A stretch of DNA of 64,000 nucleotides from Leisingera sp. ANG-M1 (GTDB lineage: Bacteria > Pseudomonadota > Alphaproteobacteria > Rhodobacterales > Rhodobacteraceae): assembly GCF_000813745.1 (NCBI RefSeq), contig NZ_JWLC01000003.1, forward strand, positions 1 through 64,000, read 5' to 3'. Made by a program: the position numbers and the translations under genes. The notes beneath the pieces were generated by a model. The model saw only the letters and a program-made list of their open reading frames with translations. It was not told the origin of the DNA and searched no databases. Shown one piece after another: positions 33,092-47,862 of the stretch. Position 1 is the first letter of the stretch. Every line of letters begins with the position of its first letter.

Positions 33092-34291
33092 ATGCGGCTG
33101 TCTCTCGTCTTTGTCCTTGCCACCGTAATGATCGATGCCATGGGTATTGGGCTGATCATGCCGGTGATGCCCAGTCTGATCACCGAGGTGCAGGGCGGCT
33201 CGCTGGCGCAGGCGGCGGTGTGGGGCGGCGTGCTCAGCACCGTTTTTGCGGTGATGCAATTCCTGTTCAGCCCCATTCTCGGCAGCCTGTCCGATGCGGT
33301 GGGCCGCCGGCCAGTGCTGCTGGTGTCGCTGTTTGTTATGGCGCTGGACTATTTGATCATGGCTGTGGCCGGCACCATGTGGCTGCTGCTTCTGGGCCGT
33401 GTCCTGGGCGGCATCACCGCCGCTACTCATTCAACTGCAGGCGCCTATATCGCAGACATCTCTCCGCCGGAGAAGAAGGCCGCCAATTTCGGCCTCTTGG
33501 GCGCGGCCTTCGGCGCCGGCTTTGTGCTGGGCCCTCTGATGGGCGGGCTGCTGGGTGAACTGGGCACAAGAGCGCCCTTCTATGCTGCAGCGGTGCTGGT
33601 GCTGCTGAACTTCACCCTCGGCTGGTTTGCGATGGGGGAAACCGTCCGCGAGGAGAACCGCCGCCCGTTCGACTGGCGCCGCGCCAATCCCTTTGGCGCA
33701 TTCCGCGCTGTTGGCCGCATCCCAGGCATCAAGGCGCTGCTGTGGGTCTATTTCCTCTATTCCCTGGCGATCTATGTCTACCCGTCGGTCTGGTCCTATT
33801 TCACGCTGGAGCGCTTTGGCTGGCAGCCGCAAGTGATTGGCCTGTCACTGGCGGTCTACGGCATCTCGATGGCTTTGGTGCAGGGCTGGCTCCTGCGCTA
33901 CACGGTGGTCTGGTTCGGCGAGCGGCGCACGGTGTTCTGGGGGCAAATCTTCGACTTCATCGCCTTTGGCATCCTCGCCTTTATCAGCAACGGCGTGCTG
34001 GCGATGATGCTGATCCCGGTCTCAGCCCTGGGGGCCGTCGTGCAGCCTGCATTGCAAGGCATGATGTCCAAAGCCGTCGATGACAATCAGCAAGGCGAGC
34101 TGCAAGGCGTCATGACGGCGGCTCACGCGCTGGCCATGATCCTGTCGCCGCTGATGATGACAGCGGTCTTTGCGCGCTTCACCGCCGAGGGCACAGGGTT
34201 CTACCTGCCTGGCGCGCCGTTCCTTTTGGCGCTGCTGCTGATGGCGATCGGTTGCGCCGTGTTATTACGGAGCAGATCTTCCGTCGCGTAA
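33092..34291 (+). CDS. MFS transporter, TetA/DHA1-like
   Basis: This 399-residue membrane protein has 12 hydrophobic segments and the MFS motif A GSLSDAVGRRPVLL between helices 2 and 3. IDAMGIGLIMPVMP at the N-terminus and GRVLGGITAATHSTAGAYIAD in helices 4-5 are typical of TetA-class drug:proton antiporters. Substrate unknown; chromosomal TetA-like proteins often export other compounds. GGCGGGGAA precedes ATG 33092. It follows pcaB by 168 bases with no recognisable gene between. Confidence 0.9.
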   Translation: MRLSLVFVLATVMIDAMGIGLIMPVMPSLITEVQGGSLAQAAVWGGVLSTVFAVMQFLFSPILGSLSDAVGRRPVLLVSLFVMALDYLIMAVAGTMWLLLLGRVLGGITAATHSTAGAYIADISPPEKKAANFGLLGAAFGAGFVLGPLMGGLLGELGTRAPFYAAAVLVLLNFTLGWFAMGETVREENRRPFDWRRANPFGAFRAVGRIPGIKALLWVYFLYSLAIYVYPSVWSYFTLERFGWQPQVIGLSLAVYGISMALVQGWLLRYTVVWFGERRTVFWGQIFDFIAFGILAFISNGVLAMMLIPVSALGAVVQPALQGMMSKAVDDNQQGELQGVMTAAHALAMILSPLMMTAVFARFTAEGTGFYLPGAPFLLALLLMAIGCAVLLRSRSSVA

Positions 34292-34369
34292 TACCGTTTC
34301 CGCTGCCGCATACCGGCTTGATACGAACAATTCCCCGCGCCACGCTGACGGAAAACGGGGAGAAAGATC

Positions 34370-35458
34370 ATGCAAACCATCAAGGCCGCCGTCTGCCGTA
34401 AATTCGGCGCCCCGCTGGTGATCGAAGAGGTACAGCTGGCCGCGCCCGGCATGGGCGAGGTTGAGGTCACGCTGGACGCGGTTGCCATCTGCCACAGCGA
34501 TATTTCCTATGCCGAGGGCGCCTGGGGCGGGCACCTGCCGGCCGTCTACGGGCACGAGGCCGCCGGGATGATCAGCGCCGTGGGCGAGGGCGTGCAAGGC
34601 TTTGCCGAGGGCGATTCCGTGGTAGTCACCCTGATCCGCAGCTGCGGCACCTGCCCCTCCTGCGCGGGCGGCAAACCCACTATCTGCGAAACGCCGCATG
34701 ATACGGCGAACGGTCCGTTGAAAACAGCCGATGGCCAGCCCCTGGACCAGGCCATGGCCTGCGGCGCCTTTGCCGAGAAAGTGGTGGTGGATCAGCGTCA
34801 GATCGTGAAGATCCCCGCGGATATGGCGAAGGACGCTGCGGCATTGGTCTCTTGTGGGGTGATCACCGGGGTCGGCGCCGTGGTGAACGCGGCGCAGCTC
34901 CGCGCGGGCCAGGATGTGGTAGTCATCGGCGCCGGCGGCGTCGGCCTCAACGCAATCCAGGGCGCCCGCATCGCAGGCGCCCGCCGCATCGTTGCGGTCG
35001 ATATGAGCCCGGAAAAACTTGGAATCGCGAAGGAATTCGGCGCCACCCACGGCGTGCTCGCCACCGAAGAGAAACCCTGGAAAGCCGCATACAAGGCGCT
35101 TGGAGGCCGCGGTGCCGATGCGGTGCTGATCACCGTCGGCGCCATCCCCGCCTATGACCAAGCGCCGCGCTACCTGGCCCGCGGCGGCAGGGCAGTGCTG
35201 ATCGGCATGCCGCATTCCGGTGCCAAGGCGGCTTATGAGCCCGTGGTGCTCGCAGCCGTTGGCCAGGGGCTCATTGGCTCCAAAATGGGCGATGTGGTCA
35301 TTCAGCGCGATATCCCGTGGATGGTGGATCTCTACCAGCAGGGCCGCCTGAAACTGGATGAGCTGATCTCGGGCCGCTGGACGCTGGAGCAGATCAACGA
35401 GGCGATTGCCGACACCAAGACTGGCAGCGCCAAGCGCAATGTGATTGTCTTCGGCTGA
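34370..35458 (+). CDS. Zinc-dependent alcohol dehydrogenase
   Basis: This 362-residue medium-chain dehydrogenase has catalytic-zinc positions Cys41 in ICHSD and His62-Glu63 in YGHEAAG, four structural-zinc cysteines (92, 95, 98, 106 in SCGTCPSCAGGKPTIC) and the NAD motif VVIGAGGVGLNAIQ. The pattern is of the class III/formaldehyde-dehydrogenase-like group, but glutathione-specific activity cannot be assumed. A GGGGAG site precedes the ATG. A small unknown gene follows after 22 bases, then an enolase-superfamily gene, so the three may work together. Confidence 0.9.
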   Translation: MQTIKAAVCRKFGAPLVIEEVQLAAPGMGEVEVTLDAVAICHSDISYAEGAWGGHLPAVYGHEAAGMISAVGEGVQGFAEGDSVVVTLIRSCGTCPSCAGGKPTICETPHDTANGPLKTADGQPLDQAMACGAFAEKVVVDQRQIVKIPADMAKDAAALVSCGVITGVGAVVNAAQLRAGQDVVVIGAGGVGLNAIQGARIAGARRIVAVDMSPEKLGIAKEFGATHGVLATEEKPWKAAYKALGGRGADAVLITVGAIPAYDQAPRYLARGGRAVLIGMPHSGAKAAYEPVVLAAVGQGLIGSKMGDVVIQRDIPWMVDLYQQGRLKLDELISGRWTLEQINEAIADTKTGSAKRNVIVFG

Positions 35459-35480
35459 CGCCCCAACCGGAGCCTGGCCT

Positions 35481-35849
35481 GTGCTGAAATTCCTGACCGA
35501 CCTGTTCAAACCCGAAGCGCCCAAGGCGCAGCCGATCACCTCGGAGACCTCGATGAGCTTTGCCAGCATTGAGGTCGGCCCTTTCCTCACCCGGCTGGCC
35601 AATAATCCGCGCTTCGGCCTGCCAGCCAATTTCGCCGCCTCGATTGCCGATGAAGTCCCCGGCCTGGCCCGGGACGCCACACGCCGCTGGAAGGCCGATG
35701 GCGGATTTGACGGGGCGCCGGTTGAACTGGTGATCGAAGTCTTCATGAACGGCACCGACGCACCCGACCTCACCTTCTTCAGCAGCCAGGCAGCCATCGA
35801 AGAGATCGAACGGGAGCTGACCGCCTTTGCCGAGGCAATGGAAGGATAA
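35481..35849 (+). CDS. Small protein of unknown function
   Basis: I do not recognise this 122-residue protein. It starts with an amphipathic MLKFLTDLFKPE, contains ARDATRRWKADGG and ELVIEVFMNGTDAPDL, and ends in an acidic helix (EEIERELTAFAEAMEG). There is no signal peptide or membrane segment. GTG at 35481 is preferred, with GGAG 8 bases upstream; a TTG at 35445 would overlap the dehydrogenase. It is 3 bases upstream of the enolase-superfamily gene, so co-translation is likely. Confidence 0.7.
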   Translation: MLKFLTDLFKPEAPKAQPITSETSMSFASIEVGPFLTRLANNPRFGLPANFAASIADEVPGLARDATRRWKADGGFDGAPVELVIEVFMNGTDAPDLTFFSSQAAIEEIERELTAFAEAMEG

Positions 35850-35852
35850 CGC

Positions 35853-37085
35853 ATGAAGCTGCAGGACCTGGACATCATCGTCACCGCGCCCCCTGCCCCC
35901 GGCTGGGGCGGGCGCTACTGGATCCTGGTGAAGGTCACCACCGACACCGGCATCACCGGCTGGGGTGAATGCTATGCCTCCTCGGTCGGCCCCGAGGCTA
36001 TGGTCCACGTGATCCGGGATGTCTTCGAGCGCCACATGGCGGGCGAGAACCCGGAAAACATCGAGCTGATGTTCCGCCGCGCCTACTCCTCTGGCTTCAC
36101 CCAGCGCCCTGACCTGACGGTGATGGGCGCCTTCTCTGGGCTCGAGATCGCCTGCTGGGATATCCTGGGCAAGGACCGCGGCCGCCCGGTCCATGCGCTG
36201 ATCGGCGGCCGGATGAATGACCGCATCCGTGCCTATACCTACCTCTACCCGCTGCCTGATCAGGACATCATGGCATTCTGGACCTCTCCGGAAATGGCCG
36301 CCGAGGCTGCCCGGCAGCGGGTCGCGGAAGGCTATACCGCGCTGAAGTTTGATCCCGCAGGTCCCTATACGATGCGCGGCGGCCATATGCCCGCGATGTC
36401 CGACATCTCGATGTCCGTGGCCTTCTGCAAGGCGATCCGCGAGGCGGTGGGCGACAAGGCCGACCTGCTGTTCGGCACCCACGGCCAGTTCAATACCGCA
36501 GGCGCTATCCGCCTGGGCCAGGCGCTGGAGCCCTATGCGCCGCTCTGGTTCGAGGAACCGACCCCGCCCGACAATATCGAGGACATGGCCCGCGTCGCCC
36601 GCAGCGTGCGTATCCCCGTTGCCACCGGTGAGCGGATGACCACCAAATCGGAATTCGCCGCCGTGCTGCGCTCCGGCGCCGCCGAAATCCTGCAGCCTGC
36701 CCTTGGGCGTGCCGGAGGTATCTGGGAGATGAAGAAAGTTGCCGCCATTGCCGAAGTCTTCAACGCGCAGATGGCACCGCATCTCTATGCCGGGCCGGTG
36801 GAATGGGCTGCCAACATCCACCTTGCCGCTTCAATCCCCAACATCCTGTTGCTGGAGACCATCGAGACCCCCTTCCACGACCAGCTGATCAAGGGCTCGA
36901 TCCGGGTCGAAAACGGCTTTGTCACCCCGCCGGAAACCGCAGGCCTCGGCATTGAGGTGGACGAAGACCTTGCCCGCGCCCATCCCTTCGCCGGCAGCGA
37001 TCTGCACCTGAACATGCAAGAAGCTCCGTGTAATTACGCCGGAGGCAATGCCTTTACCGGAGGCTCTCCGCCAATCGTCGAGTGA
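35853..37085 (+). CDS. Mandelate racemase/muconate lactonizing enzyme (sugar-acid dehydratase-like) family protein
   Basis: This 410-residue enolase-superfamily protein has an N-terminal capping domain (about 1-125) and a barrel with TALKFDP (162-168), WFEEPTPP (Glu234/235), ATGERMTTK (Glu260) and MAPHLYAGPV (His310), as in acid-sugar dehydratases. The first metal ligand, usually Asp or Glu in the LxDAHG/EAHG strand, reads FGTHGQF at 207-213, with Gly where the carboxylate is expected. Metal binding may thus be altered. Probable substrates are aldonic or uronic acids; not determinable here. Confidence 0.87.
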   Translation: MKLQDLDIIVTAPPAPGWGGRYWILVKVTTDTGITGWGECYASSVGPEAMVHVIRDVFERHMAGENPENIELMFRRAYSSGFTQRPDLTVMGAFSGLEIACWDILGKDRGRPVHALIGGRMNDRIRAYTYLYPLPDQDIMAFWTSPEMAAEAARQRVAEGYTALKFDPAGPYTMRGGHMPAMSDISMSVAFCKAIREAVGDKADLLFGTHGQFNTAGAIRLGQALEPYAPLWFEEPTPPDNIEDMARVARSVRIPVATGERMTTKSEFAAVLRSGAAEILQPALGRAGGIWEMKKVAAIAEVFNAQMAPHLYAGPVEWAANIHLAASIPNILLLETIETPFHDQLIKGSIRVENGFVTPPETAGLGIEVDEDLARAHPFAGSDLHLNMQEAPCNYAGGNAFTGGSPPIVE

Positions 37086-37160
37086 ATTCGCACCAACGGG
37101 GTGACTCGGCGTCAGGAAATAGGGCAAGGTGCGGCAAAGACCGAAGCAGGATGCCGCAAA

Positions 37161-37493
37161 TTGCCGACCAAGACCAGCGAAACCCTCCCCCCGGACACCC
37201 CCGAGGACATGCAGGAACGTGCCGCGGCGGCCGCCGCTTTCCTGAAAACGCTCGCGCATGAGGGCCGGCTGATGATCCTCTGCTACCTGGGAACCGGAGA
37301 GCGTTCAGTGGGCGAGCTGGAGGCGCTTTTGAACATGCGCCAGGCAGCGGTGAGCCAGATGCTCGCCCGGCTGCGCGAGGACGGACTGGTTGCCACCCGG
37401 CGGGAGGGGAAGACGATTTACTACTCCCTGAAGGACCGCAACGCCGAAGAGATCATCGCCCTGCTCTACAAACAGTTCTGCAGCGGCACGTAG
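37161..37493 (+). CDS. ArsR-family regulator resembling persulfide sensors SqrR/BigR
   Basis: This winged-helix ArsR protein (FLKTLAHEGRLMILCYL, SVGELEALLNMRQAAVSQMLARLREDGLV, REGKTIYYSL) has two cysteines, one in LMILCYL and one in the C-terminal YKQFC, 66 residues apart. Published persulfide sensors of the SqrR type use Cys41 and Cys107, the same spacing. With TTG at 37161 as start the cysteines fall at exactly 41 and 107; a GTG at 37101 and ATG at 37209 are alternatives. No sulfide:quinone reductase or persulfide dioxygenase gene is adjacent, so the target is unknown. A GNAT gene follows after 20 bases. Confidence 0.78.
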   Translation: MPTKTSETLPPDTPEDMQERAAAAAAFLKTLAHEGRLMILCYLGTGERSVGELEALLNMRQAAVSQMLARLREDGLVATRREGKTIYYSLKDRNAEEIIALLYKQFCSGT

Positions 37494-37513
37494 CCCGGGC
37501 AGGAGGACGCACT

Positions 37514-38014
37514 TTGCCGCCTGTCCCAACACTTCAAACCGAACGGCTGCTGCTGCGCCCGCAGATTGCGGCGGATTGGGATCAATACCGCGACTTGATG
37601 CAATCGGACAAGGCGCGCTTCATGGGCGGCACCTTCAGTCTGCGCGAAGCCTGGGGGCTGTTCTGCCACGACCTGGCGCAATGGCAGCTGTTCGGTCACG
37701 GCGCGCTGATGGTGGAGTGCAGGGACAGCGGGCGCTGCTTCGGCCAGGTCAGCATCAACGCAGGCCCGCTGTTCCCCGAGCGGGAGCTAGGCTGGCTGCT
37801 TTATCCCGAAGCCGAGGGCCAGGGCTACGCCTATGAAGCCGCCCTGGCACTTCGGGACTGGGCCTTTGGCACCGCTGGCTTTTCAACCCTGGTCAGCTAT
37901 GTCAGCCCGGACAACGCCAGATCGCAACGCCTGGCAGAACGGCTTGGCGCGGTGCTTGATCCGCGCGCCGCGCCGCAAGCCCCTGGTGATCTGGTCTACC
38001 GCCACAGCCCGTGA
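37514..38014 (+). CDS. GNAT-family N-acetyltransferase (RimJ-like)
   Basis: This 166-residue protein has the RimJ/RimL-type GNAT pattern: LQTERLLLRP at the start, then ELGWLLYPEAEGQGYAYEAALAL with the acetyl-CoA-binding Q-G-x-G-like loop (EGQGYAYEA), and SYVSPDNARSQRLAERLGA. Acceptor unknown. The start is TTG at 37514 with GGAGG 7 bases upstream; no ATG fits. It follows the ArsR gene by 20 bases. Confidence 0.85.
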   Translation: MPPVPTLQTERLLLRPQIAADWDQYRDLMQSDKARFMGGTFSLREAWGLFCHDLAQWQLFGHGALMVECRDSGRCFGQVSINAGPLFPERELGWLLYPEAEGQGYAYEAALALRDWAFGTAGFSTLVSYVSPDNARSQRLAERLGAVLDPRAAPQAPGDLVYRHSP

Positions 38015-38020
38015 GACGCC

Positions 38021-38052
38021 GCGCTGCGCGTAAGCGCAGCGCCACGCCCAAC
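38021..38052. repeat. CACGCCCAAC-type intergenic palindrome, copy 2
   Basis: GCGCTGCGC (38021-38029) and GCGCAGCGC (38034-38042) form a 9-bp stem with a GTAA loop and run into CACGCCCAAC. It lies six bases past the GNAT stop. The following 70 bases hold GGAGCGGGCGGGAGCC, which resembles sequence after the copy near 55.2 kb. Confidence 0.7.
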
Positions 38053-38122
38053 CGTGCAGGTGCATTCTTTGAATGCTCCGGAGCGGGCGGGAGCCCTCCC
38101 CCGCCGCTTGGTTCAACGCTGT

Positions 38123-38971
38123 TTAGTCATCTGCCCGCACGGTCTGGGTCTGCACGCCCAGGCCTTCGATTTCCAGCCGCATCACGTCGCCCGCCTTCAG
38201 ATAGACCGGCTCCGGCTTAATCCCCATGCCGACACCCGGCGGGGTGCCGGTGGCAATCACATCGCCCGGATGCAGCGTCATCAGCTGGCTCAGATGCGAA
38301 ATGATCTGCGCTACTGTGAACACCATGGTGCCGGTATGGCCGCTCTGCCGCCGCTCGCCATTCACATCGCAGGTGAGCCAAAGGTCCTGCGGGTCCGCCA
38401 CCTCGTCCTGGGTCACCAGCCAGGGTCCGATAGGGCCAAAGGTGTCGCAGCTTTTACCTTTGGTCCATTGCCCGGCAAGTTTGGTCTGGTAATCGCGCTC
38501 GGAAACATCGTTGATCACGCAATAGCCTGCCACATGGCTCAGCGCATCCGCTTCAGTGACGTATTTGGCTGCCGTGCCGATCACCACGCCCAGCTCCACT
38601 TCCCAATCCGCAGCAACCGAGCCGCGCGGCAGCACCACGTCGTCATTGGCTCCGGTCATCGAAGACGTGGCCTTCAGAAACAGGATCGGGTGCTCCGGCA
38701 GTGCAAGCCCCATTTCCTCGGCATGATCGGTGTAGTTGAGACCGATGCCCAGAAATTTGCCGGCCTGTCCGACGCAGGGTGCCAAGTCCACAGGCCCTTC
38801 CACCAGCGGCAAGGCTTCCGCATCCAAAGCCGCCAGCCTCCCCAGCGCCGCATCATCCAGCACCGCACCGGTAATATCCGGCACATGCGCTGACAGATCC
38901 CGGACCCGGCCCGCGCCATCCAGCAGCCCCGGCCTGACCTCTCCCTCTGCGCGGTATCGCAGCAGTTTCAT
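38123..38971 (-). CDS. Fumarylacetoacetate hydrolase family protein
   Basis: This 282-residue protein has the FAH C-terminal fold with metal-binding residues in DWEVELGVVIG and NDVSERDYQ, and TGTPPGVGMG near the C-terminus. GIGLNYTDHAEE and WTKGKSCDTFGPIGP are typical of the short bacterial FAH group, which includes acylpyruvate hydrolases and 2-keto-4-pentenoate-type hydratases. Exact substrate unknown. It lies 29 bases downstream of the ABC-like gene on the same strand and may be co-transcribed. Confidence 0.9.
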   Translation of the reverse strand: MKLLRYRAEGEVRPGLLDGAGRVRDLSAHVPDITGAVLDDAALGRLAALDAEALPLVEGPVDLAPCVGQAGKFLGIGLNYTDHAEEMGLALPEHPILFLKATSSMTGANDDVVLPRGSVAADWEVELGVVIGTAAKYVTEADALSHVAGYCVINDVSERDYQTKLAGQWTKGKSCDTFGPIGPWLVTQDEVADPQDLWLTCDVNGERRQSGHTGTMVFTVAQIISHLSQLMTLHPGDVIATGTPPGVGMGIKPEPVYLKAGDVMRLEIEGLGVQTQTVRADD

Positions 38972-39000
38972 GTCACACTTCCCTGTTGTTGATTTTCTGC

Positions 39001-41997
39001 TCAGTTGGAGACGTAGCCCGCCACCACCTGCAAAAGTTTGAAGGCGGTCGAGGCATCGTTTTCCACCACCGCCAGGAATTCCTCCTCACCGATCCGCAAG
39101 CAGTTGAGATCGGTGGCCGCGATCATGCTTAGCGCCCGCGGCTCGTGCCGGATCAGTCCCAGCTCACCCACCAGCCGCCCGGGGCCCACCATGGCAATCA
39201 GCCGGTCCTCGGCGCCCTCCTGCGGCAGATACAACCCAGCCTCGCCTTCCAGGATCATATAGGCACCGTCCGAGGCTTCATCATCCTTCAGGAACACCAC
39301 CTCGCCCGCCTTGGCATCATACCAGCGCGCGCCAAAGGCCAAGAGGCGCAGCTGGCGGCGGTTCAGCCCAGAAAACAGCTCGGTCTGCTCCAGCGCCCTG
39401 AGCTTGCGCGCCAGGTCCTGGCTCGCCGCCCCGTCGCCTGCCGCCGCGGCCTGGGCCTCGTCGCTGACCAGACGGCCTTGGCGCAGCTCGTAATAGACAT
39501 CAAAGACATCCGGGCTCTGGAAAGCAGGCGCCAGGTAGATCAGCGTGGTTTCCGGCAGCAGCTTGCGCAGGTTCTTGTGCACCGCCACCCGGGTTTCCAG
39601 GTCATAGCTCGCCATGGCGGAATCAAGGATCAGCACATCCGGCCGTTTGATAGTCGCCCGGCAGAAGGCCAGCGGTTCGGCAAAGCTGGCGGCCAGCCCC
39701 TGCCCGCCCACGGCAATCGGCATGTCAAAGATCAGCTCAACAACCTGATCGCGCAGGCCGTCCCGCACCATGAGGTCCGAAACGAGTTTCCGCACCTCGT
39801 CCCCCTTGGCACCAGCAGCATCGGAGATCTTGCCGAACAGGGCGTTTTCCAAAACCGTCAGGCTGGGTGCGAAACTGTCGTTGGAAAACGGCACGAACCC
39901 TGCGCCCAGCGCCTTGCGCAATCCCTGCCCGTGGCTGCGGCGGAAGCCGAGGATGCGCTCCATCATGCCGTCCTCGAAGGCCGGGCCGATCTGTTCGGCT
40001 GAAATGGTGAAAGGCACGATCAGCAGCTGAGCCAGCTCTTCGCGGCTTAATGCTGCCGCATCGACGTCGCCTGGCTTGTCGACTAGCGCCAGTGCCGCTT
40101 CATAAGCCTCAATATCCAGGCCAAGCTTGCGGAACAGCGGATGGGTTGTACCGTCCATTCCGAAAATCTGCCGCAGCATCTCGACCACATCGCGGGTCAG
40201 TGCTACCAGCCCCTCGTCCAGGCCCAGCTGCTTGAGCTGATCGAGAAACTCAGCATGGCGGTGCAGCATTTCGCCAGTCATTGCTTTCTGCGAAGCTGCA
40301 AACAGCAAGTTCTCCGCCACCGGCAGTGCCGGGTTGTAACTCTCGGCCTCCAGGAAATGCACATGCATATCCAGCCCGGCTTCCTGCAGCGCCTGCCGGA
40401 CAACAGGGCGGAGTTTCACCAATTGCTCCGCCAGCTCTGCGTGGGCTGAGGCGTCAAAAACCTGTTCTATGCCGCGGCGGAACAGGGCGGTGTCCGAGCC
40501 GATCCCTTCGACCAGCTTCAGCCACCAGTCCCGCAGCTCTGCCTCGCTGGAAAACCCGGCCAGATGCGGATCCAGCCAGGGCACATCAAAGGGATCCGGG
40601 CTGTTGCCTGCCTTCTTGGCGACCTCCAGCTTCTGCCTGTCGCGCGGCTCGCCGACCGGGCGCAGCCGCATCGGCATCATCACATTGTCGCCAAAGGAGC
40701 CCTGAAACAGAACGGGCCGCGAGGTGGCGTAGCCGATCCGCGCCGCAACCGTGGCCTGATGCAGCCCGCTGAGGTTCTGCTCTGCCACCGTGACAGTGCC
40801 TGCAGTTGGCAGGATTTCCCGGGTCAAGAGTTCCGCAAGCGCCCGCCGGTCTTCCTCTGACGGCGCCGCAATGCCAATCACCTGCCCCGCCGGGAAGGTA
40901 GCGCTCAGGTCCTCCAGTACCAGGTTGCCATCAGTATCGCGCACATTGACCGCATCCAGCACCACGTCTCCCTTGAGCCGCCCCAGCTCTTCTGGCGCGC
41001 CGCGCATCAGGTTTTCATCCACCATGCCCTGCGGCGCAAACCGCTCCAGGATCACTTCCCAGCGCAGGGACATGTCCTGGGTCTGGTTGTAATAGGCCAG
41101 CAGTTCCTTCCACGGGGATGCCAGGTCCTTGTAGGCCGCCAGCGCCGCCACCAGCGCGCCCAGCGAGACCTTGCCCTGCAGCACCAGAAACCCGCCGACC
41201 GCGTAGAAGAAGAACGGTGTCAGCTGGGTAATGAAGTTGTTGAGAAACTTCATGAAGAATTTCTTCTGGTAGATCTCGAAGCGAATATCGAACAGCCGCC
41301 CCAGCCGGTCGGTGATCACCGCCATCCGGTAGCGCCAGCCGCCATTGATCCGAAGCGTCGAGGCCCCCGCTGCGCTTTCGCCGATCTCGGTCGCCAGCGC
41401 CCGCACCTGCTTGATGCGCTTCTTGTTCAACAGGTTGATCTGGCGCTGCAGCTTGGGAATCAGCCAGCCCTGCAGCGGAATGAGCGCAATGGCAGCCAGC
41501 CCGAACCAGACACTTTGCAGAAACAGAAAGAACAGGATCGTCAGCATCTGCCCCGCCTGCAGCACCGGCTGGCTGACCGCATCCCCCATCAGCCCGCCCA
41601 TCGGCTCGGATTCGGAGGTGACCATCGACACCAGCTCGCCCTGGCTGACCCGCTCGAAATAAGGCTGCGGGAAGCGCAGTACGCGGGCGATCAGCTGATA
41701 GCGGAAGCGGCGCAGCATGCGCTCGGCCAGCACCCCCTTCATGGTGTTGATCCGCATCTTCAGCAGGCCGTGGCACAATACGGCTAGCAGGAAGCCGCCG
41801 CAGAGGATCCACAGGAAGGTCAGCTGGTCAAAGCTCTGCCCCAGCACCGTGATGGTTGAGGTTTCCGAGCCGATGGCATCATTGATGATCCGCTTCGGCA
41901 GTTCCAGCGTCAGGTAGAGCAGCGGGAACAGGCAGGCGGTGACCAGCAGCAGTACCAGCTGGTCGCGTTTTGAGTATTTCCAGATGAAACGGAACAA
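39001..41997 (-). CDS. ABC-exporter-like protein with degenerate ATPase domain and C-terminal cNMP-binding-like domain
   Basis: The 998-residue protein begins as a type I ABC exporter with membrane helices and coupling regions at 1-310 (FERVSQGELVSMVTSESE, SLGALVAALAAYKDL). The ATPase domain follows (from about 345) but every key motif appears lost: Walker A reads APSEEDRRA at 378-386, the Q-loop IGYATS, the signature VGGQGLA at 763-769, Walker B ends LILDS with Ser for Glu at 793, and the H-loop lacks His (YLAPAF). About 270 extra residues lie between Q-loop and signature. Residues 870-998 look like a cyclic-nucleotide-binding domain (GELGLIRHEPRALSMIA). It is probably not an ATP-driven pump; a sensor or regulatory membrane protein is one possibility. 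Confidence 0.85.
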   Translation of the reverse strand: MFRFIWKYSKRDQLVLLLVTACLFPLLYLTLELPKRIINDAIGSETSTITVLGQSFDQLTFLWILCGGFLLAVLCHGLLKMRINTMKGVLAERMLRRFRYQLIARVLRFPQPYFERVSQGELVSMVTSESEPMGGLMGDAVSQPVLQAGQMLTILFFLFLQSVWFGLAAIALIPLQGWLIPKLQRQINLLNKKRIKQVRALATEIGESAAGASTLRINGGWRYRMAVITDRLGRLFDIRFEIYQKKFFMKFLNNFITQLTPFFFYAVGGFLVLQGKVSLGALVAALAAYKDLASPWKELLAYYNQTQDMSLRWEVILERFAPQGMVDENLMRGAPEELGRLKGDVVLDAVNVRDTDGNLVLEDLSATFPAGQVIGIAAPSEEDRRALAELLTREILPTAGTVTVAEQNLSGLHQATVAARIGYATSRPVLFQGSFGDNVMMPMRLRPVGEPRDRQKLEVAKKAGNSPDPFDVPWLDPHLAGFSSEAELRDWWLKLVEGIGSDTALFRRGIEQVFDASAHAELAEQLVKLRPVVRQALQEAGLDMHVHFLEAESYNPALPVAENLLFAASQKAMTGEMLHRHAEFLDQLKQLGLDEGLVALTRDVVEMLRQIFGMDGTTHPLFRKLGLDIEAYEAALALVDKPGDVDAAALSREELAQLLIVPFTISAEQIGPAFEDGMMERILGFRRSHGQGLRKALGAGFVPFSNDSFAPSLTVLENALFGKISDAAGAKGDEVRKLVSDLMVRDGLRDQVVELIFDMPIAVGGQGLAASFAEPLAFCRATIKRPDVLILDSAMASYDLETRVAVHKNLRKLLPETTLIYLAPAFQSPDVFDVYYELRQGRLVSDEAQAAAAGDGAASQDLARKLRALEQTELFSGLNRRQLRLLAFGARWYDAKAGEVVFLKDDEASDGAYMILEGEAGLYLPQEGAEDRLIAMVGPGRLVGELGLIRHEPRALSMIAATDLNCLRIGEEEFLAVVENDASTAFKLLQVVAGYVSN

Positions 41998-42202
41998 AGA
42001 GCGTTCGATGGGAAAGCTCCATCAATGGCGGCTTCGGATATGGGCTGCCTATGGGTAGCGCGGTTTGGCAGGCACAGGCAATGGGCAGAAACCCGCCCGG
42101 CCGCGCCCTGTCCCGTTACGGCACCTTGCCGGCGCAGCATTTGCCAGACGGCAAAAAATCCGTAAGGTTCCAGCACCGTACACTTGCTGGAGGTCATTCG
42201 GT

Positions 42203-42595
42203 TTGCCTGAATACGTCGGTTCCGTCCTGCTTTTGCTCTGCGCGCTGCAGGTCAAGCACATGTTTGCCGACTTCTTTCTGCAGACGCCGAAGATGCTGGC
42301 CGGCCGCTGCGCCTATGTCCACATGGGCCGCGCGCAGCATGCGGGGGTGCATATCATCGGCTCGGCCATTGTCTTTGCCCTGTTCGGAGCACCTGTGGTT
42401 TTCATCCTGGTGCTGGCCGCATTGGAATGGGTGGTGCATTTCCACATCGACTTCGGCAAGGCGCGCTATTCAGAGGTGAAGAAACTGAACCCGCAGCAGG
42501 CACGGTTCTGGCAGGCCATGGGCGCGGACCAGATGCTGCACCAGCTGACCTATGTCGCCATGGCCTGGGCCTGGGTCAAATACACGGCGATGTAA
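42203..42595 (+). CDS. DUF3307 family membrane protein
   Basis: This 130-residue protein fits DUF3307: a first helix with LLLLCALQVKHMFADFFLQT, a second hydrophobic stretch (HIIGSAIVFALFG, FILVLAALEWVVHFHIDF) and a C-terminal FWQAMGADQMLHQLTYVAMAWAW. Function unknown; inner-membrane location expected. TTG at 42203, with GGAGG 9 bases upstream, gives the family's usual N-terminus; longer frames add unconserved sequence. It is divergent from the ABC-like gene. Confidence 0.8.
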   Translation: MPEYVGSVLLLLCALQVKHMFADFFLQTPKMLAGRCAYVHMGRAQHAGVHIIGSAIVFALFGAPVVFILVLAALEWVVHFHIDFGKARYSEVKKLNPQQARFWQAMGADQMLHQLTYVAMAWAWVKYTAM

Positions 42596-42604
42596 ACCGC
42601 AGCC

Positions 42605-42685
42605 TTGGGGGCCAGCCCCCAAACCCCCGGAGTATTTCCAGCAAGATGAATGAGCAGGCCCCTTTTCATCTTGCTCCAAATACTC
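42605..42685. repeat. AGTATTT inverted-repeat element, full copy with flanking hairpin
   Basis: TTGGGGG/CCCCCAA (42605-42611 and 42616-42622) forms one hairpin. Just after it a 21-base arm beginning GAGTATTT (42630-42650) pairs with a 21-base arm ending AAATACTC (42665-42685), with a single 2x2 mismatch. It stands between convergent genes, where a bidirectional terminator is expected. Related copies are at 19208-19226 and 55129-55195. Confidence 0.75.
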
Positions 42686-42749
42686 TCGTCCCGCCGCCCG
42701 GCAGGCGGCTTTGCCGCCGAGAGGGGGCCAGCGCCGCGAGGCGCAATTA

Positions 42750-43208
42750 CTAGGGCACGACAGGTTTATCCCGCTTAATGGTCCGCAGCACCACATTGGT
42801 CTGGGCGCTGGCCACGGCCGGCAGGCGGAACAGGAAATCCTCCAGGAACCGGTTGTAAGCTTCCAGATCAGGTGCCAGCACCCGCAGGTGATAGTCCGCC
42901 TGCCCGGTAGTGGCATAACATTCCTGCACCAGCGGGCTGGTTTCCACCGCCCGTATAAACTCCACCAGCCTGTCCGGGTCGTGACGGGTCAGATGCACAT
43001 GCACCAGCGCCTGAAACCCCAGACCCATGGCCGGCGCATTCACCACCGCCCCGTAACGCTCGATAATGCCTGCCTCCTCCAGCGCCCGCACCCGGCGCCA
43101 AAGGGCGGAGGCGGACATCCCCACCGCCTCGGCCAGATCGGCATTCGAGATGCGGGAGTCTTCCTGCAGCAGGGTCAGAATGCGGCGGTCGCGGTCGTCG
43201 ATCTTCAT
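42750..43208 (-). CDS. Lrp/AsnC-family transcriptional regulator
   Basis: This 152-residue protein has an N-terminal helix-turn-helix (DDRDRRILTLLQEDSRISNADL, MSASALWRRVRALEEAGII) and a C-terminal RAM effector domain (ALVHVHLTRHD, VQECYATTGQADYHLRV). ATG at 43208 is preferred to 43289, which would add unconserved residues. It is divergent from the indolepyruvate oxidoreductase gene, an amino-acid catabolic enzyme and its likely target. A perfect TTGATCAA palindrome lies in the shared gap at 43243-43250. Confidence 0.9.
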   Translation of the reverse strand: MKIDDRDRRILTLLQEDSRISNADLAEAVGMSASALWRRVRALEEAGIIERYGAVVNAPAMGLGFQALVHVHLTRHDPDRLVEFIRAVETSPLVQECYATTGQADYHLRVLAPDLEAYNRFLEDFLFRLPAVASAQTNVVLRTIKRDKPVVP

Positions 43209-43355
43209 GAATCGGTCCAGATTTTCAGAAAGCGGCGGTGATTTGATCAATCTAACCATAAATCTCCGCAAAACCAGCAACAGGGGCAAATCTTTTCAGG
43301 CTTTGGGGATTATTCTTCCGAAAAACACGACTTTGCGCGCAAGGACTCCCCCGCG

Positions 43356-46300
43356 ATGACCAAGCTGAGCCACGATTTCCGCAGCTACAAGCTGGATGAC
43401 AGATACGACATGACCAAGGGCCGGGTGTTCCTCACCGGCACCCAGGCGCTGGCCCGGATCATGCTGGACCAGGCCCGGCGCGACCGCGAAAGCGGGCTGA
43501 ACACCGCAGGCTTTGTTTCGGGCTACCGCGGCTCGCCCTTGGGCGGCGTCGATCTGGAGTTCTGGCGCGCCCAGGAGCGGATGCAGGCGAACCGGATCAA
43601 ATTCATGCCCGCCGTAAACGAGGACCTCGGCGCGACGGCCGTCCTGGGCGCGCAGCAGGCGGTGCTGGACCCGCACTGCGAGGTCGAAGGCGTGTTCTCC
43701 ATGTGGTACGGCAAAGGCCCGGGCGTGGACCGCTCCGGCGATGCGCTGAAGCATGGCAACGCTTATGGGTCGTCGGAAAAGGGCGGCGTGCTGGTGGTGG
43801 CGGGCGATGACCATGGCTGCGTCAGCTCCTCCATGCCGCATCAGTCGGACGCCGCTTTCCTGGCCTGGTTCATGCCGATCCTGAACCCGGCGGATGTGTC
43901 GGAATACCTGACTTTCGGCGAATACGGCTTTGCCCTGTCGCGCTACTCGGGCACCTGGGTGGGGTTCAAGGCAGTGTCTGAAACCGTGGAGAGCGCCCGC
44001 TCGGTGGAGCTCCGCCCGGACCGCAGGTTCATCTACCCGGAGCTGCCGGACTACCCCGGCGGGCTGCATATCCGCCGCGCCGACCTGCCCTCGCCCGAGA
44101 TCGAAACCCGCATCCATGCCAAGCTGGACGCAGTGCGCGCCTTTGCCGAGGCCAATCCGATCGACAAGCGGATTTATGACATCAAGGAGGCGAAGTTCGG
44201 CTTTGTCTCCACCGGCAAGGGGCATCTGGACCTGATGGAGGCGCTGCGGCTTCTGGGGCTGGACGAGGCCGCCTGCCGCCGCCTCGGCATCGACATCTAC
44301 AAGGTTGGCATGGTCTGGCCGCTGGACCGCACCGACGCGCTGCGGTTTGTCCGCGGCAAGCAGGAGGTGCTGGTTGTTGAAGAGAAGCGCGGCATCATCG
44401 AGAGCCAGTTCAAGGAGAACTTCTACGACTGGCCCGGCAGCAAACCGGAGAAGATGGTCGGCAAATACGACAGCCAGGGCGCGCCGCTGATCCCCTGGAC
44501 CGGAGAGCTGAGCCCGCTGTTGCTGGCGCCCATCGTGGCGGCGCGGCTGGACAAGTTCTTCCCCGAGGAAAACCTGCCCGCAAAGGCCGCAGCGCTGACG
44601 GCTGAACCGCCGAAGGTGCTGAACGTGCCCGGCGCCACCCGCACGCCCTATTTCTGCTCGGGCTGCCCGCATAACTCCTCGACCAAGCTGCCTGAAGGGT
44701 CCAAGGCGTTTTCCGGCATCGGCTGCCATGTGATGGCCAGTTGGATGGACCGGGAGACCGCAGGCTATGCGCAGATGGGCGGAGAAGGCGTGCCCTGGAC
44801 TGTCGCCTCGCAGTTCAACGGCAACAAGCATGTGTTCCAGAACCTGGGCGAAGGCACCTGGTACCACTCGGGCTCTTTGGCGATCCGCCAGGCGGTCGCG
44901 GCCGGCACCAACATCACCTACAAGATCCTCTACAATGACGCGGTGGCGATGACCGGCGGCCAGCCGGTGGACGGGCCGGTCTCGGTGCATGGCATCGCCC
45001 AGACCTGTCGCGCCGAAGGGGTGGAGCGGATTGCCCTGGTCTCTGATGACATCGGCAAATTTATTCATAGCGATTTCCCACGCGGCACCACCTTCCACGA
45101 CCGCGCCGAACTCGACAGGGTGCAGCGCGAGCTGCGGGACATCCCCGGCGTCACCGTGCTGATCTACGAGCAGACCTGCGCCACCGAAAAGCGCCGCCGC
45201 CGCAAGCGCGGCAAGATGGAGGACCCCAAGCGCTTTGCCTTTATCAACGATCTGGTCTGCGAGGGCTGCGGCGATTGCTCGGTGGAGAGCAACTGCCTGA
45301 GCGTGGAGCCGAAAGAGACCCCCTTTGGCCGCAAGCGCAAGATTAACCTCAGCACCTGCAACAAGGACTTCTCCTGCCTGAACGGATTCTGCCCCAGCTT
45401 TGTGACCGTCGAAGGCGCCACCCGGCGCAAGAAGAAGCCAGCCGGGCTGGACGCGGCTCAATTGACCACCAAGCTGCCCGCCCCCGAACTGCCTTCGCTC
45501 ACGGAGCCGTTCGATCTGCTGGTCACTGGGGTCGGAGGCACCGGCGTGGTCACCGTTGGCGCGCTGATCACCATGGCCGCACATCTGGAGGGCAAGGGCG
45601 CCAGCGTCCTGGACTTCACCGGCTTTGCCCAGAAGTTCGGCACAGTGCTGAGCTATATCCGGCTCTCCAAGGAACCGGAGAGCCTGAACCAAGTGCGCAT
45701 TGATCAGGGCGGCGCCGATGCCGTCATCGGCTGCGACGTGGTGGTGAGCTCGGCGCCCAAGGCCTCGGTGCACTACCGCCGTGGCACCAAGGTGGTGCTG
45801 AACCGGGCAGAGATGCCCACCGGCGATCTGGTGCTGCGCCGCGATGCTGACCTGATGGCCGGGGTGCGGGAACAGACCGTCGCAGAAGCGGTGGGTCCGC
45901 AGAACCTGTCGGGCTTCAACGCAAATGAAGCGGCGGAGGAGATGCTGGGCGATGCGGTGCTGGCCAATGTCATGATGCTGGGCTTTGCCTGGCAGAAAGG
46001 GCTGGTGCCGGTGAGCGCTGGCGCATTGGACCAGGCGATTGAGCTGAACGGGGTTGCGGTAGAGAAAAACCGCCTTGCATTTGCCATCGGCCGGGCGATG
46101 GCCGCGGACCCGCATCTGGTCGCCAGCCACTACGAGGAGAAACCGGAACAGGATGAAACCCTGGACTGCATGATCGAGCGGCGCGCGACCTTCCTCACAG
46201 GGTATCAGAACATGGCCTATGCCGGACGCTATACCAGTGCCTTGAAACGGTTCCGCAGCACGCTGCCGGAGGCTGCGCAGGAAGAGCTTACCAAGCCCGC

Positions 46301-46778
46301 CGCCCAGGCGCTGTTCAAACTGATGGCCTACAAGGACGAGTTCGAAGTGGCCCGCCTCCTGACCAGCGAGGCTTTCCAGCATCAGCTGGCAGATGAATTC
46401 GAAGGCGATTTCAGCATCAAATACCACCTCGCCCCGCCGTTGCTGAACTGGAAACAGGACGCGCAGGGACGCCCTGCCAAACGTGCCTTTGGCGCCTGGC
46501 TGCGGCCCGCAATGAACCTGCTGGCCAAAGGGAAAGCCTTGCGCGGCTCAGCCTTCAATCCCTTCGGCTACCACGAGGAGGCGCGGCTCCACCAGGACCT
46601 GCTGGCGTGGTTTGAAACTGCTTTGGACACCGTCGCCAGCCGCTACAGGGTGGAAACCCATGACGATTGCCTGAAAGTGCTGCAGGCGCCGATGGAGATC
46701 CGCGGTTATGGACCTGTGCGCCTGGAGGCCGCCCGGGACGCGCGGAACCGGGCCGAGGAATTGCTTGCCAGTCTCTAG
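43356..46778 (+). CDS. Indolepyruvate:ferredoxin oxidoreductase, fused single chain
   Basis: This 1140-residue protein joins the thiamine-diphosphate (alpha-type) and gamma-type parts of indolepyruvate:ferredoxin oxidoreductase. The N-terminal region has GFVSGYRGSPLGG and SMWYGKGPGVDR; two cysteine clusters, CEGCGDCSVESNC and CNKDFSCLNGFC (about 635-682), can hold Fe-S centres; the gamma part starts with VTGVGGTGVVTVGAL near 726. It oxidatively decarboxylates aryl or branched 2-oxoacids to acyl-CoA in amino-acid breakdown. The fused aerobic form is common in alphaproteobacteria. Divergent from Lrp; convergent TetR starts 2 bases after its stop. Confidence 0.93.
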   Translation: MTKLSHDFRSYKLDDRYDMTKGRVFLTGTQALARIMLDQARRDRESGLNTAGFVSGYRGSPLGGVDLEFWRAQERMQANRIKFMPAVNEDLGATAVLGAQQAVLDPHCEVEGVFSMWYGKGPGVDRSGDALKHGNAYGSSEKGGVLVVAGDDHGCVSSSMPHQSDAAFLAWFMPILNPADVSEYLTFGEYGFALSRYSGTWVGFKAVSETVESARSVELRPDRRFIYPELPDYPGGLHIRRADLPSPEIETRIHAKLDAVRAFAEANPIDKRIYDIKEAKFGFVSTGKGHLDLMEALRLLGLDEAACRRLGIDIYKVGMVWPLDRTDALRFVRGKQEVLVVEEKRGIIESQFKENFYDWPGSKPEKMVGKYDSQGAPLIPWTGELSPLLLAPIVAARLDKFFPEENLPAKAAALTAEPPKVLNVPGATRTPYFCSGCPHNSSTKLPEGSKAFSGIGCHVMASWMDRETAGYAQMGGEGVPWTVASQFNGNKHVFQNLGEGTWYHSGSLAIRQAVAAGTNITYKILYNDAVAMTGGQPVDGPVSVHGIAQTCRAEGVERIALVSDDIGKFIHSDFPRGTTFHDRAELDRVQRELRDIPGVTVLIYEQTCATEKRRRRKRGKMEDPKRFAFINDLVCEGCGDCSVESNCLSVEPKETPFGRKRKINLSTCNKDFSCLNGFCPSFVTVEGATRRKKKPAGLDAAQLTTKLPAPELPSLTEPFDLLVTGVGGTGVVTVGALITMAAHLEGKGASVLDFTGFAQKFGTVLSYIRLSKEPESLNQVRIDQGGADAVIGCDVVVSSAPKASVHYRRGTKVVLNRAEMPTGDLVLRRDADLMAGVREQTVAEAVGPQNLSGFNANEAAEEMLGDAVLANVMMLGFAWQKGLVPVSAGALDQAIELNGVAVEKNRLAFAIGRAMAADPHLVASHYEEKPEQDETLDCMIERRATFLTGYQNMAYAGRYTSALKRFRSTLPEAAQEELTKPAAQALFKLMAYKDEFEVARLLTSEAFQHQLADEFEGDFSIKYHLAPPLLNWKQDAQGRPAKRAFGAWLRPAMNLLAKGKALRGSAFNPFGYHEEARLHQDLLAWFETALDTVASRYRVETHDDCLKVLQAPMEIRGYGPVRLEAARDARNRAEELLASL

Positions 46779-46780
46779 GG

Positions 46781-47446
46781 TCAGACGTCCCAGTGCTGTT
46801 TGGTGAACTCGGTGAAAGCCTGCATTTCCTCCGGCAGCGGCTCGCGGCCGGTGAAGACTTTGAGGTACTCCGGTGTCACTTCCAGCCGGTGGGCATGGCT
46901 TTCGTTCGGGTCCGCCATGTCATAACCCAGCTGCATATAATAGAGTACTTTGGCCCGGGTCATCGCCTCGCGGTTTGCGTAGCCGTAGCGTTCGAACATG
47001 CCTGTCAGCGCCTCGACCCTGCGGCTGTCGGAGCGGTCCAGCAGGCTGCGCACCTTGCCTGAGCGGCGCGACCAGTCGCGTACCGCAAAATCCAGCGCAG
47101 TGTTGAAGAGGTTAGGATTGGTGATGCAGTGGAAGACGTTCAGCACCGCCCCGGTGATGGTCTTGGCCGGCGCCTCGGCCTGGCGCACCATGCCGGCGGT
47201 GTTGGTCTGCTCCCAGGTTTTCAGCAGCGCGTCCAAAAGGTCCTGGCGCGACTTGAAATACCAGTAGAAAGAGGAGCGTGAAACCTGCATCCGCTCGGCC
47301 AGCGCCAGCACCTTGACCTGCTCCACCCCGTCCGAGATCAGCACGTCCATCGCCACGTTCAGCCAATCATCGCGGGTGACCTTGATATTGCCCACCAGCG
47401 GCTCGGCCTCGGGGTTGTCCCGGTGCAGTACAGGTTTTTGCGCCAT
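46781..47446 (-). CDS. TetR/AcrR-family transcriptional regulator
   Basis: This 221-residue protein has a TetR-type N-terminal helix-turn-helix (WLNVAMDVLISDGVEQVKVLALAERMQVSRSSFYWYFKSRQDLL) and a helical ligand domain. AAGG precedes ATG 47446. Target unknown: it converges on the indolepyruvate oxidoreductase gene and is divergent from the peptide-type ABC operon across 416 bases, the likelier target. Confidence 0.88.
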   Translation of the reverse strand: MAQKPVLHRDNPEAEPLVGNIKVTRDDWLNVAMDVLISDGVEQVKVLALAERMQVSRSSFYWYFKSRQDLLDALLKTWEQTNTAGMVRQAEAPAKTITGAVLNVFHCITNPNLFNTALDFAVRDWSRRSGKVRSLLDRSDSRRVEALTGMFERYGYANREAMTRAKVLYYMQLGYDMADPNESHAHRLEVTPEYLKVFTGREPLPEEMQAFTEFTKQHWDV

Positions 47447-47862
47447 TTGCCGCCTTTCACGTCCATCGCTTCCCGCCCCATCCTAGGAGGGCGGGCTGCC
47501 GCCGCCAACAGCACAGCCCCGCCGTTTCGGCCAGCAAGTGGCGGCAAAGCAACAGCCGTGCCCCGGCGGCGTCCGGATCGGTTCCGGCATGGAAACCATA
47601 ACCGGAACGCGGATGTTATCATTTGTGAACCCAGGCTATGTACAAACCGCAAAACCGTCACAAAACCGGTACCGGCATTGGCTAACAGGCGCGTACCGGG
47701 CCTTTGGCGGCGGTCGGAAAGCCGTTCACATTTCCCTTGCGCCGCGGACGGATGGCCAAATGGGGTTTGACTAAACGGCGCCGGTCGCGCGAAGGTGAGC
47801 AAAAAAACAGGGGAAAACACGATCTCATGAACGCCTTAAACCAGCCGGGCGGGCAAAACTGA
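47447..47862. promoter_or_regulatory. 416-base control region between tetR and the ABC operon
   Basis: No gene is evident. Two symmetric sites stand out: GTTCCGG (47581-47587) with CCGGAAC (47602-47608), and the perfect 10-bp palindrome CCGGTACCGG (47666-47675). Either could be an operator for the divergent TetR. A TTGACT at 47767-47772 resembles a -35 box, but I see no matching -10. Confidence 0.4.

Follow-up and report, generated by a model that had tools for sequence, protein, structure and literature searches.

The defining feature of ATP-binding cassette (ABC) proteins is the ATP site, and in an ABC dimer each such site draws its Walker A and Walker B motifs from one chain and its signature motif from the other. 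The gene described here lies on the minus strand of the 64,000 nt stretch at the start of contig NZ_JWLC01000003.1 (hereafter the window) from the alphaproteobacterium Leisingera sp. ANG-M1, which has a genome of 5.37 Mb. It represents a lineage that appears to lack both half-sites although strong purifying selection maintains the exporter fold, and its product ends in a cyclic nucleotide monophosphate (cNMP)-binding domain. The type IV ABC exporters MsbA, TmrAB, BmrCD, PCAT1 and Atm1 share with this protein the ABC_membrane family (PF00664) and the overall fold, and its nucleotide-binding domain (NBD) is still recognisable as such; compared with them, however, it lacks Walker A, the Q-loop glutamine, the signature, the Walker B glutamate and the H-loop histidine, and has in addition an NBD insert of around 310 residues and the cNMP tail.

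Proteins of the ABC fold that do not pump include CFTR, a gated channel, and SUR, a regulatory subunit. ATP is bound by both, with at least one site still working in each, and to our knowledge gating by a fused cNMP domain occurs in neither. An ABC exporter fused to a cNMP-binding domain is found in HetC of Nostoc PCC 7120, where this domain is reported to be needed for function (PMC10986499). The cNMP domain of HetC is N-terminal and is reported to bind guanosine tetraphosphate (ppGpp), and the protein also has a C39 peptidase and an ATPase residue that is essential, whereas the window protein has its cNMP domain at the C terminus, no ATPase residues and no peptidase (C39) match among Pfam families up to an E value of 1. 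Among the papers listed in searches for ABC proteins lacking a working ATP site or carrying a cNMP domain, HetC was the sole ABC exporter with a cNMP domain that was found.

A pair of genes on pSymB of Sinorhizobium meliloti shows the two components apart. WKL29738.1, annotated as 'ABC transporter ATP-binding protein', matches the insert (26.6% identity), and 96 bases downstream WKL29739.1, annotated as 'Crp/Fnr family', consists of a lone cNMP_binding domain in 154 residues. Here the two are separate genes, and their annotations are those of a standard ABC transporter and a regulator of transcription, whilst in the window gene they are fused. The S. meliloti ABC gene has a divergent methyltransferase gene and, in its own orientation about 2 kb upstream, a gene for a glycosyltransferase; the locus as such was not found in the literature search, a passage in PMC2912261 concerning other pSymB genes.

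The start codon proposed for the window gene has parallels in Staphylococcus aureus infC, ccpN and cvfC1, each of which has a conserved non-canonical start, AUA or AUU, behind a Shine-Dalgarno sequence. Expression from the ccpN and cvfC1 starts is reported at around 10% of that from AUG in poor medium, with ccpN reaching up to 30% in rich medium (PMC13009471). One of these Firmicutes genes encodes a translation factor, one a repressor and one a small protein, whereas the window gene encodes a membrane protein of 1002 codons in Rhodobacterales, with AUA and AUC interchanging.

The gene and its domains

An earlier note on this DNA, made from the sequence alone, had described an intact 998-codon frame with an exporter-like membrane domain and a C-terminal domain resembling cNMP-binding modules. 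The frame at 39001-41997 on the minus strand is indeed open over 998 codons; its first codon, TTG 41997, is probably not the start, and the ATC at 42007-42009 gives 1002 codons. The revised gene is divided as follows.

39001..42009, minus strand: revised gene, encoding a putatively ATPase-dead ABC exporter that ends in a cNMP tail; 1002 codons when counted from the proposed ATC with the stop excluded (open frame, homology, Shine-Dalgarno sequence, conservation profile)
41140..41892, minus strand: ABC_membrane (PF00664) transmembrane domain, residues 36-286 (Pfam; Foldseek matches to type IV exporters)
40663..40965, minus strand: degenerate NBD, part 1, residues 345-445 (PF00005 narrowly below cut-off; strands and a P-loop-like helix in the models)
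39448..39732, minus strand: degenerate NBD, part 2, residues 756-850, with the signature, Walker B and H-loop positions (alignment)

The two domains assigned in that note are borne out by Pfam: ABC_membrane scores 64.6 bits (cut-off 28), in keeping with the type IV exporter fold matches, and cNMP_binding (PF00027) at residues 896-981 scores 56.8 bits (cut-off 27.5). ABC_tran (PF00005), at residues 361-451, falls narrowly below its cut-off of 25 with 24.6 bits. All 25 NCBIfam matches shown, out of 80, are far below their cut-offs, and neither Pfam nor NCBIfam yielded a name for the alphaproteobacterial ABC family described below.

Searched with Foldseek, the model of the whole chain matches type IV exporters best (BmrCD at E 1.2e-12, and also PCAT1, TmrAB and Atm1). 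Residues 330-858 modelled alone gave a predicted local distance difference test score (pLDDT) of 80.2 and a predicted TM-score (pTM) of 0.77, and resemble the TAP1 and HlyB NBDs (E about 1e-7, with a TMt of about 0.6 and a root-mean-square deviation of 9-14 A); on this model the chain keeps the NBD fold around the insert.

Loss of the ATPase motifs

The substitutions begin in the Walker A loop:

40840..40866, minus strand: pseudo-Walker A loop APSEEDRRA, residues 378-386 (alignment and conservation in clade 1)

A378 stands in place of the first glycine, R384 in place of the lysine and R385 in place of the serine or threonine. The position of the Q-loop glutamine is taken by T425 and that of the H-loop histidine by P824, the signature position (residues 768-778) reads LAASFAEPLAF, that is, LAASF against LSGGQ, and Walker B is VLILDSAMASYD, in which the aspartate is kept as D792 and Ser793 occupies the place of the catalytic glutamate. 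The claim that Walker A, the Q-loop, the signature, the Walker B glutamate and the H-loop histidine were all replaced is thus correct at every position read.

Of 11 diagnostic residues, between none and two are kept in every row of clade 1, the clade of the window protein (104 rows), and in every row of clade 2, a paralogous clade (25 rows). Across clade 1 the first, fourth and sixth positions of Walker A are never glycine, and the lysine and the serine or threonine are likewise absent from all 104 rows, save one row with glycine at the last position; the lysine is arginine (R384) throughout, with D383 present in 101. The Q-loop glutamine, signature glutamine, catalytic glutamate and H-loop histidine are found in 0/104 rows, L082 being a gap at four of the positions in the signature, Q-loop, Walker B and H-loop, and the signature serine is found in nine. 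Within clade 1, conservation is high in the altered loop too (E382 0.98, D383 0.97, R384 1.00, A386 0.98). On this basis it is almost certainly a conserved protein lacking a canonical ATP site.

Relatives from other alphaproteobacterial families and genera, 44 in number (L210-L249 and L119-L122), keep one to nine of the 11 residues, the most intact being L221 with nine and L219 with eight. In these the Walker A lysine survives in 27 and the following serine or threonine in only three (18 have Glu there and 14 Asp); the Q-loop glutamine is absent from all, the Walker B aspartate is retained in ten (Asn in 25), and the signature glutamine, catalytic glutamate and H-loop histidine persist in 36, 21 and 12 respectively. 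We take the Walker A serine or threonine, the Q-loop glutamine and the Walker B aspartate to be the magnesium contacts of working sites; the low counts at these positions imply that all three contacts had mostly been lost in the wider family already, with the lysine, signature glutamine and glutamate still present in many of its members. To judge from these alignments, the erosion of the motifs is partial in the wider family and complete in the window's clade.

Conservation and selection

A single scan of public genomes supplied the homologues; of 337 in all, the 80 best were used as orthologues, among them a protein of Leisingera sp. ANG-Vp with 98% identity. Residues 1 to at least 996 are matched in 79 of these, the remaining one reaching residue 978 at a contig end, so that the open frame is no product of chance. 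Within the order, clade 1 orthologues occur in 69 of 292 genomes, counted as those having a row of at least 55% identity and including both the window genome and the partial G150; the match runs from residue 1 or 2 to at least 996 in 68 of the 69, whilst G150 has a 794-residue frame covering residues 205-998 only. An early in-frame stop, at codon 538, was found in one of the 80 orthologues (L082, from a metagenome bin). One record titled Nocardioides marinus, JAHVJD010000004.1, encodes a protein 87% identical to that of the window; the title may be wrong.

The ratio of nonsynonymous to synonymous substitution rates (dN/dS) was calculated with our own Nei-Gojobori script in chosen groups of eight, seven and 16 rows from Leisingera, Pseudophaeobacter and Ruegeria (28, 21 and 120 pairs), of which the 22, 15 and 19 pairs with total dS of 0.05-1.2 were kept. 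The median was 0.03-0.13 in every domain, the pseudo-NBD included, which is the mark of purifying selection. Mean conservation, counted without L082, was 0.85 in the membrane domain, 0.82 in the cNMP domain and 0.67-0.74 in the NBD parts and insert. The dN/dS values and the clade-wide conservation rule out a recent pseudogene. The earlier note had proposed that homologues with intact motifs would point to a recently decayed copy; such homologues do exist in partly intact form, with nine and eight of the residues, but the loss is old, clade-wide and accompanied by purifying selection. Both the search for conserved homologues and the dN/dS calculation that it suggested speak against a recently decayed copy, the orthologues being nearly all full length.

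A tree of 80 of the 174 family rows with three outgroup rows was left unrooted because each outgroup row had been chosen as the longest frame, two of them having no ABC motifs. In this tree clade 2 forms one side of a branch (support 100), and clade 1 one side without support, with L199 unplaced; in a faster tree of 128 rows, clades 1 and 2 each form one side of a branch (100 in both cases), which the long rows L199 and L206 join. Other alignments comprised the window protein with 39 of the 80 orthologues, the window protein with 37 orthologues, and 22 rows from which L082 was left out as truncated.

The cNMP module, the insert and the wider family

39004..39414, minus strand: cNMP-binding domain, residues 862-998 (PF00027; sequence relatives among regulatory chains of protein kinase A (PKA) in the PDB)
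39127..39180, minus strand: phosphate-binding-cassette region, residues 940-957 (clade 1 conservation)
39733..40662, minus strand: insert of about 310 residues (446-755) between the Q-loop and signature regions (alignment, profile, model)
40198..40530, minus strand: repeat module copy 2, residues 490-600, with AENLLFA (HHalign)
39718..40050, minus strand: repeat module copy 3, residues 650-760, with LENALFG (HHalign)

When only single strong domain matches are considered, the tail is closest by sequence in the PDB to regulatory chains of PKA: 5j3u has an E value of 5.3e-14 and PKA RI-alpha one of 6.4e-14. Rows from protein kinase G (PKG) rank above these, their E value of 2.1e-15 being the sum of four weak domain matches. 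G944, E945, L946, R954 and L956 are invariant in all 103 clade 1 rows, L082 being left out. E945 and R954, presumably the glutamate and arginine of the phosphate-binding cassette, fall opposite the GE...PR of a PKG domain. Twelve matches to the class III cyclase family (PF00211) score over cut-off in the host genome.

A separate cNMP gene on the same strand accompanies the ABC gene in 38 of the 44 wider-family loci. In 36 of these the two frames lie between an overlap of 142 bases and a gap of 136 bases, the exceptions being L235, where an over-extended frame of 975 residues overlaps the ABC frame, and L227, at 615 bases. The site glutamate is present in 37 and the arginine in all 38 of the separate modules. 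Four further loci (L232, L234, L246 and L247) have the domain fused to the ABC frame, PF00027 being over cut-off in all four, and no module, separate or fused, was found in L237 or L238. With the domain fused in clades 1 and 2 as well, the cNMP module is what stays constant in the family. The simplest reading of these arrangements is that the window's cNMP domain would be the fusion of a pre-existing pair, a direction that we infer, as the tree is unrooted; the module may have begun as a partner, or may have been joined more than once.

The insert was not described in the earlier note. Its repeat copies 2 and 3 are homologous (HHalign probability 98.95, E 1e-17), whilst only a weak match to them (E 1e-4, probability about 56) is given by the first ENLLFG-like stretch, which belongs to the NBD proper. 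Across 385 alphaproteobacterial genomes, a profile of the insert region tells the family apart from ordinary ABC proteins: a strong group, with frames mostly around 900 residues long, matches at E values of about 1e-47 and below, against a background of about 1e-4 to 1e-11, and seven genomes have no match. For the insert stretches, 39 of 46 listed were used, L226 and L237 being left out of the list. Among 398 genomes sampled across the phylum, 31 have an insert match at E values of 1e-25 or below and all 31 belong to the window's class, though the share of other classes in the sample is not recorded. These comparisons define an alphaproteobacterial family of ABC-exporter fold, as predicted from its members' sequences, with a repeat-bearing NBD insert, a neighbouring or fused cNMP module and eroded ATPase motifs. 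The earlier note suggested that an intact but non-hydrolysing, transporter-like sensor would be a new type of protein. The window protein is indeed intact, conserved, devoid of a recognisable ATP site and equipped with a cNMP module; rather than being wholly new, it is the extreme member of this family, and sensing would be a putative role.

Genes of two glycosyltransferase families recur around the wider-family ABC genes, each in 29 of 44 loci and for the most part upstream in the opposite orientation, which suggests a possible glycan-related cargo in the wider family.

A probable, conserved AUA or AUC start

42007..42009, minus strand: proposed ATC start codon (homologous to the paralogue start; Shine-Dalgarno sequence)
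42017..42020, minus strand: Shine-Dalgarno-like GGAG, 7 nt before the ATC (sequence, orthologue alignment)

At the proposed start position the 80 orthologues have ATA in 61 cases, ATC in 17 and ATG in two. A GG at -11/-10 is found in 77 of them, with per-base identities of 1.00 and 0.93, whilst mean pairwise identity is 0.24-0.45 per base upstream of -12 and 0.32-0.53 between the GG and the codon, save for the two bases right before it (0.71 and 0.69); codon-like conservation begins at the ATA or ATC itself. The window has an in-frame stop five codons upstream of the ATC with no ATG, GTG or TTG between, and 50 of the 80 orthologues likewise have none of these from the start site back to the in-frame stop. 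The next such codon downstream sits 17-22 codons in, in 67 of the 80.

Several alternatives were rejected. TTG 41997 has a TTG at the corresponding place in only seven of the 80 orthologues, and a longer upstream start for the window is unlikely given the nearby stop and the scant conservation beyond the Shine-Dalgarno sequence. An isoleucine inside a longer frame fits the codon usage poorly: ATA accounts for 145 of the 4147 isoleucine codons in the gene bodies (3.5%), against 61 of 80 at this position, and ATT, with 1026 of 4147 elsewhere, is never found there. Control genes whose starts could be placed begin with ATG in 58/58 cases for MR_MLE (62 loci), 61/61 for zinc dehydrogenase (62), 11/11 for FAA hydrolase and 29/30 for IOR (34); the AsnC and DUF3307 starts were unplaceable, 29 of 33 and 71 of 79 not being aligned at the N terminus and eight DUF3307 codons not being starts.

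The same alternation extends through clade 1, with ATC in 17, ATA in five and ATG in one of 23 deeper rows, and ATA in 22 and ATC in eight of 30 further loci (the window's included, and species partly repeated). Sixteen of these 23 deeper rows carry the GG at -11/-10, which favours ATA or ATC in several. All 25 clade 2 paralogues have canonical starts (ATG in 23, GTG in two), as do most of the 27 wider-family starts placed out of 31 (ATG in 21, TTG in three, GTG in one and CTC in two, the CTC calls not being trusted). The 128-row tree requires at least 15 swaps between ATA and ATC within clade 1, and three changes to ATG. From these patterns AUA or AUC is very probably the real start of the window gene. 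Such codons belong to the class discriminated against by initiation factor IF3, and their retention over the clade, with ATG or GTG in the paralogues, makes this a further case of a near-cognate start apparently held by selection. A start of this kind can lead annotation to misplace the N terminus, as seen in one record: RefSeq has the Ruegeria sp. TM1040 homologue begin at a TTG that lies 17 codons beyond the ATA (L252 4672-4723). The infC gene of the host genome also seems, by inspection of the one sequence, to begin with ATA (L169 1459-1461), behind AGAAGGA.

Proposed mechanism and alternatives

Since the wider family has the insert, partly eroded motifs and a separate cNMP gene, the window protein would be a fusion standing at the end of the loss of the ATPase motifs. 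In the dimer, the pseudo-NBDs would run no ATP cycle and would instead form a scaffold that, with the insert, relays the state of the cNMP domains, bound or free, to the membrane domain. The cNMP domains would take the input signal, and the membrane domain might then switch conformation without ATP, whether as a passive translocator, channel or flippase, or as a membrane-bound receiver of signals. The amount of protein would be held low because translation, as proposed, starts at a conserved AUA or AUC. A translationally throttled, cyclic-nucleotide-controlled, ATP-independent membrane device is our best reading, with a probability of roughly 0.5. It starts from what the alignments contain, namely the conservation, the loss of motifs, the association and fusion of the cNMP module, its intact site residues and the ATA or ATC codon, and from these we infer ligand, coupling, gating, ATP independence, cargo and low expression. 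The cNMP domain is probably the functional input, and the odds are about even that it controls the membrane domain without ATP hydrolysis. A fuller history is offered tentatively, as possible rather than probable: the cNMP module, starting as a neighbouring subunit and later becoming fused, would have taken over the membrane domain as the ATPase motifs went stepwise, giving a cyclic-nucleotide-gated, ATP-independent translocator kept at low copy by an IF3-sensitive AUA or AUC start.

An exporter fold without its defining ATPase, joined to a signal-binding module, suggests that a pump fold has been reused as a signal-controlled device. Its relatives, with part-eroded motifs and a separate cNMP gene, represent intermediate stages and offer a natural series for studying what an ABC membrane domain does without ATP; the same series bears on how a new input came to be wired in.

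Several observations weigh against this reading. The Walker B aspartate is retained in 65 of the 104 clade 1 rows, the window's among them. In clade 2, where the cNMP domain is also fused, the site glutamate has become aspartate in all 25 rows, with the arginine kept in all 25, and the domain of HetC is reported to bind ppGpp rather than cyclic AMP, so such domains can take other ligands (PMC10986499). The insert is the least conserved part and could host an unrelated activity. The AlphaFold2 model of the whole chain, built on 40 rows, is of moderate quality (pLDDT 74.4, pTM 0.57), and whole-chain TM-scores in Foldseek are low, TMt being about 0.46 for the best single-chain match. As to the start, an alternative ATG, GTG or TTG lies within ten codons upstream in 10 of the 80 orthologues and in 12 of the 23 deep clade 1 rows, which makes the start less sure in the latter, and in L206 an ATG two codons upstream with a better-placed Shine-Dalgarno sequence looks like the real one.

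Four other explanations were considered. The protein might move nothing, being a scaffold or receptor that anchors a cNMP sensor and the insert at the membrane and recruits partners such as the DUF3307 protein, whose gene lies divergently at 79 of the 80 orthologue loci. The large insert with its internal repeat would fit this, as would the low expression expected here, which suits a regulator; however, the membrane domain is the most conserved region, beyond what an anchor would need, and the glycosyltransferase genes recurring near wider-family loci point to transport, so that we regard a pure scaffold as unlikely.

Alternatively, the chain may be the inactive half of an asymmetric heterodimeric exporter whose competent ABC partner is encoded elsewhere. 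With 12 PF00664 matches in the host genome, one of them the window protein, partners exist, and the heterodimeric exporters TmrAB and BmrCD are among the top fold matches. A frame with Walker A and LSGGQ-like motifs was found in the flanks (up to 6 kb) of five of the 80 orthologue loci; the other 75 have no such neighbour, and a competent ABC gene is thus rejected as a conserved neighbouring partner. Moreover, with both of its half-sites missing, the window chain would leave even a heterodimer without a complete ATP site, and we consider this arrangement quite improbable.

It is similarly improbable that other residues bind ATP without hydrolysing it, ATP and cNMP jointly setting the conformation. 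The NBD fold and often the Walker B aspartate are retained, and the conservation of the pseudo-Walker A loop suggests that this loop does something; against this, none of the three Walker A glycine positions holds glycine in any clade 1 row, the lysine has become arginine, and the Q-loop glutamine, signature glutamine, catalytic glutamate and H-loop histidine are gone from every row. Structure prediction had been proposed as a check for a complete site formed by other residues; the models, of the ligand-free monomer, do show an ABC NBD fold and make such a site unlikely.

Ordinary decay of a dying transporter gene would account for the lost catalytic motifs, the early stop of L082 and the partial frame of G150, but is extremely improbable given the low dN/dS even in the pseudo-NBD, the full-length match in nearly all clade 1 genomes and the conservation of the altered loops.

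Neighbouring genes and membrane-domain-only relatives

42065..42595, plus strand: DUF3307 gene, the divergent neighbour (open reading frame as listed; true start probably further in)

Neighbours were counted only as homologues of the frames within positions 33001-52000 of the window. Besides the DUF3307 gene, an FAA hydrolase gene lies 29 bases downstream of the window gene, with a homologue at just 11 of the 80 loci. Among the papers listed, DUF3307 is named in one, on a phage genome.

Relatives of the membrane domain having no NBD, 410-465 residues long and 38-43% identical, were examined in six genomes including the window's own, which supports the view that a membrane domain of this kind may have a role without an ATPase on its own chain. 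The copy in the host genome (L129 6399-7631) lies near CopD and multicopper-oxidase genes; the others are L130 and L132-L135, the copy in L135 lying near genes for a multicopper oxidase, an outer-membrane efflux protein (OEP) and CusF. A shorter type, likewise consisting of the membrane domain only, has 309-361 residues and 25-30% identity; it is found at L137 6011-6979 (G184) and also in G041, G196, G226, G109, G071, G093 and G148.

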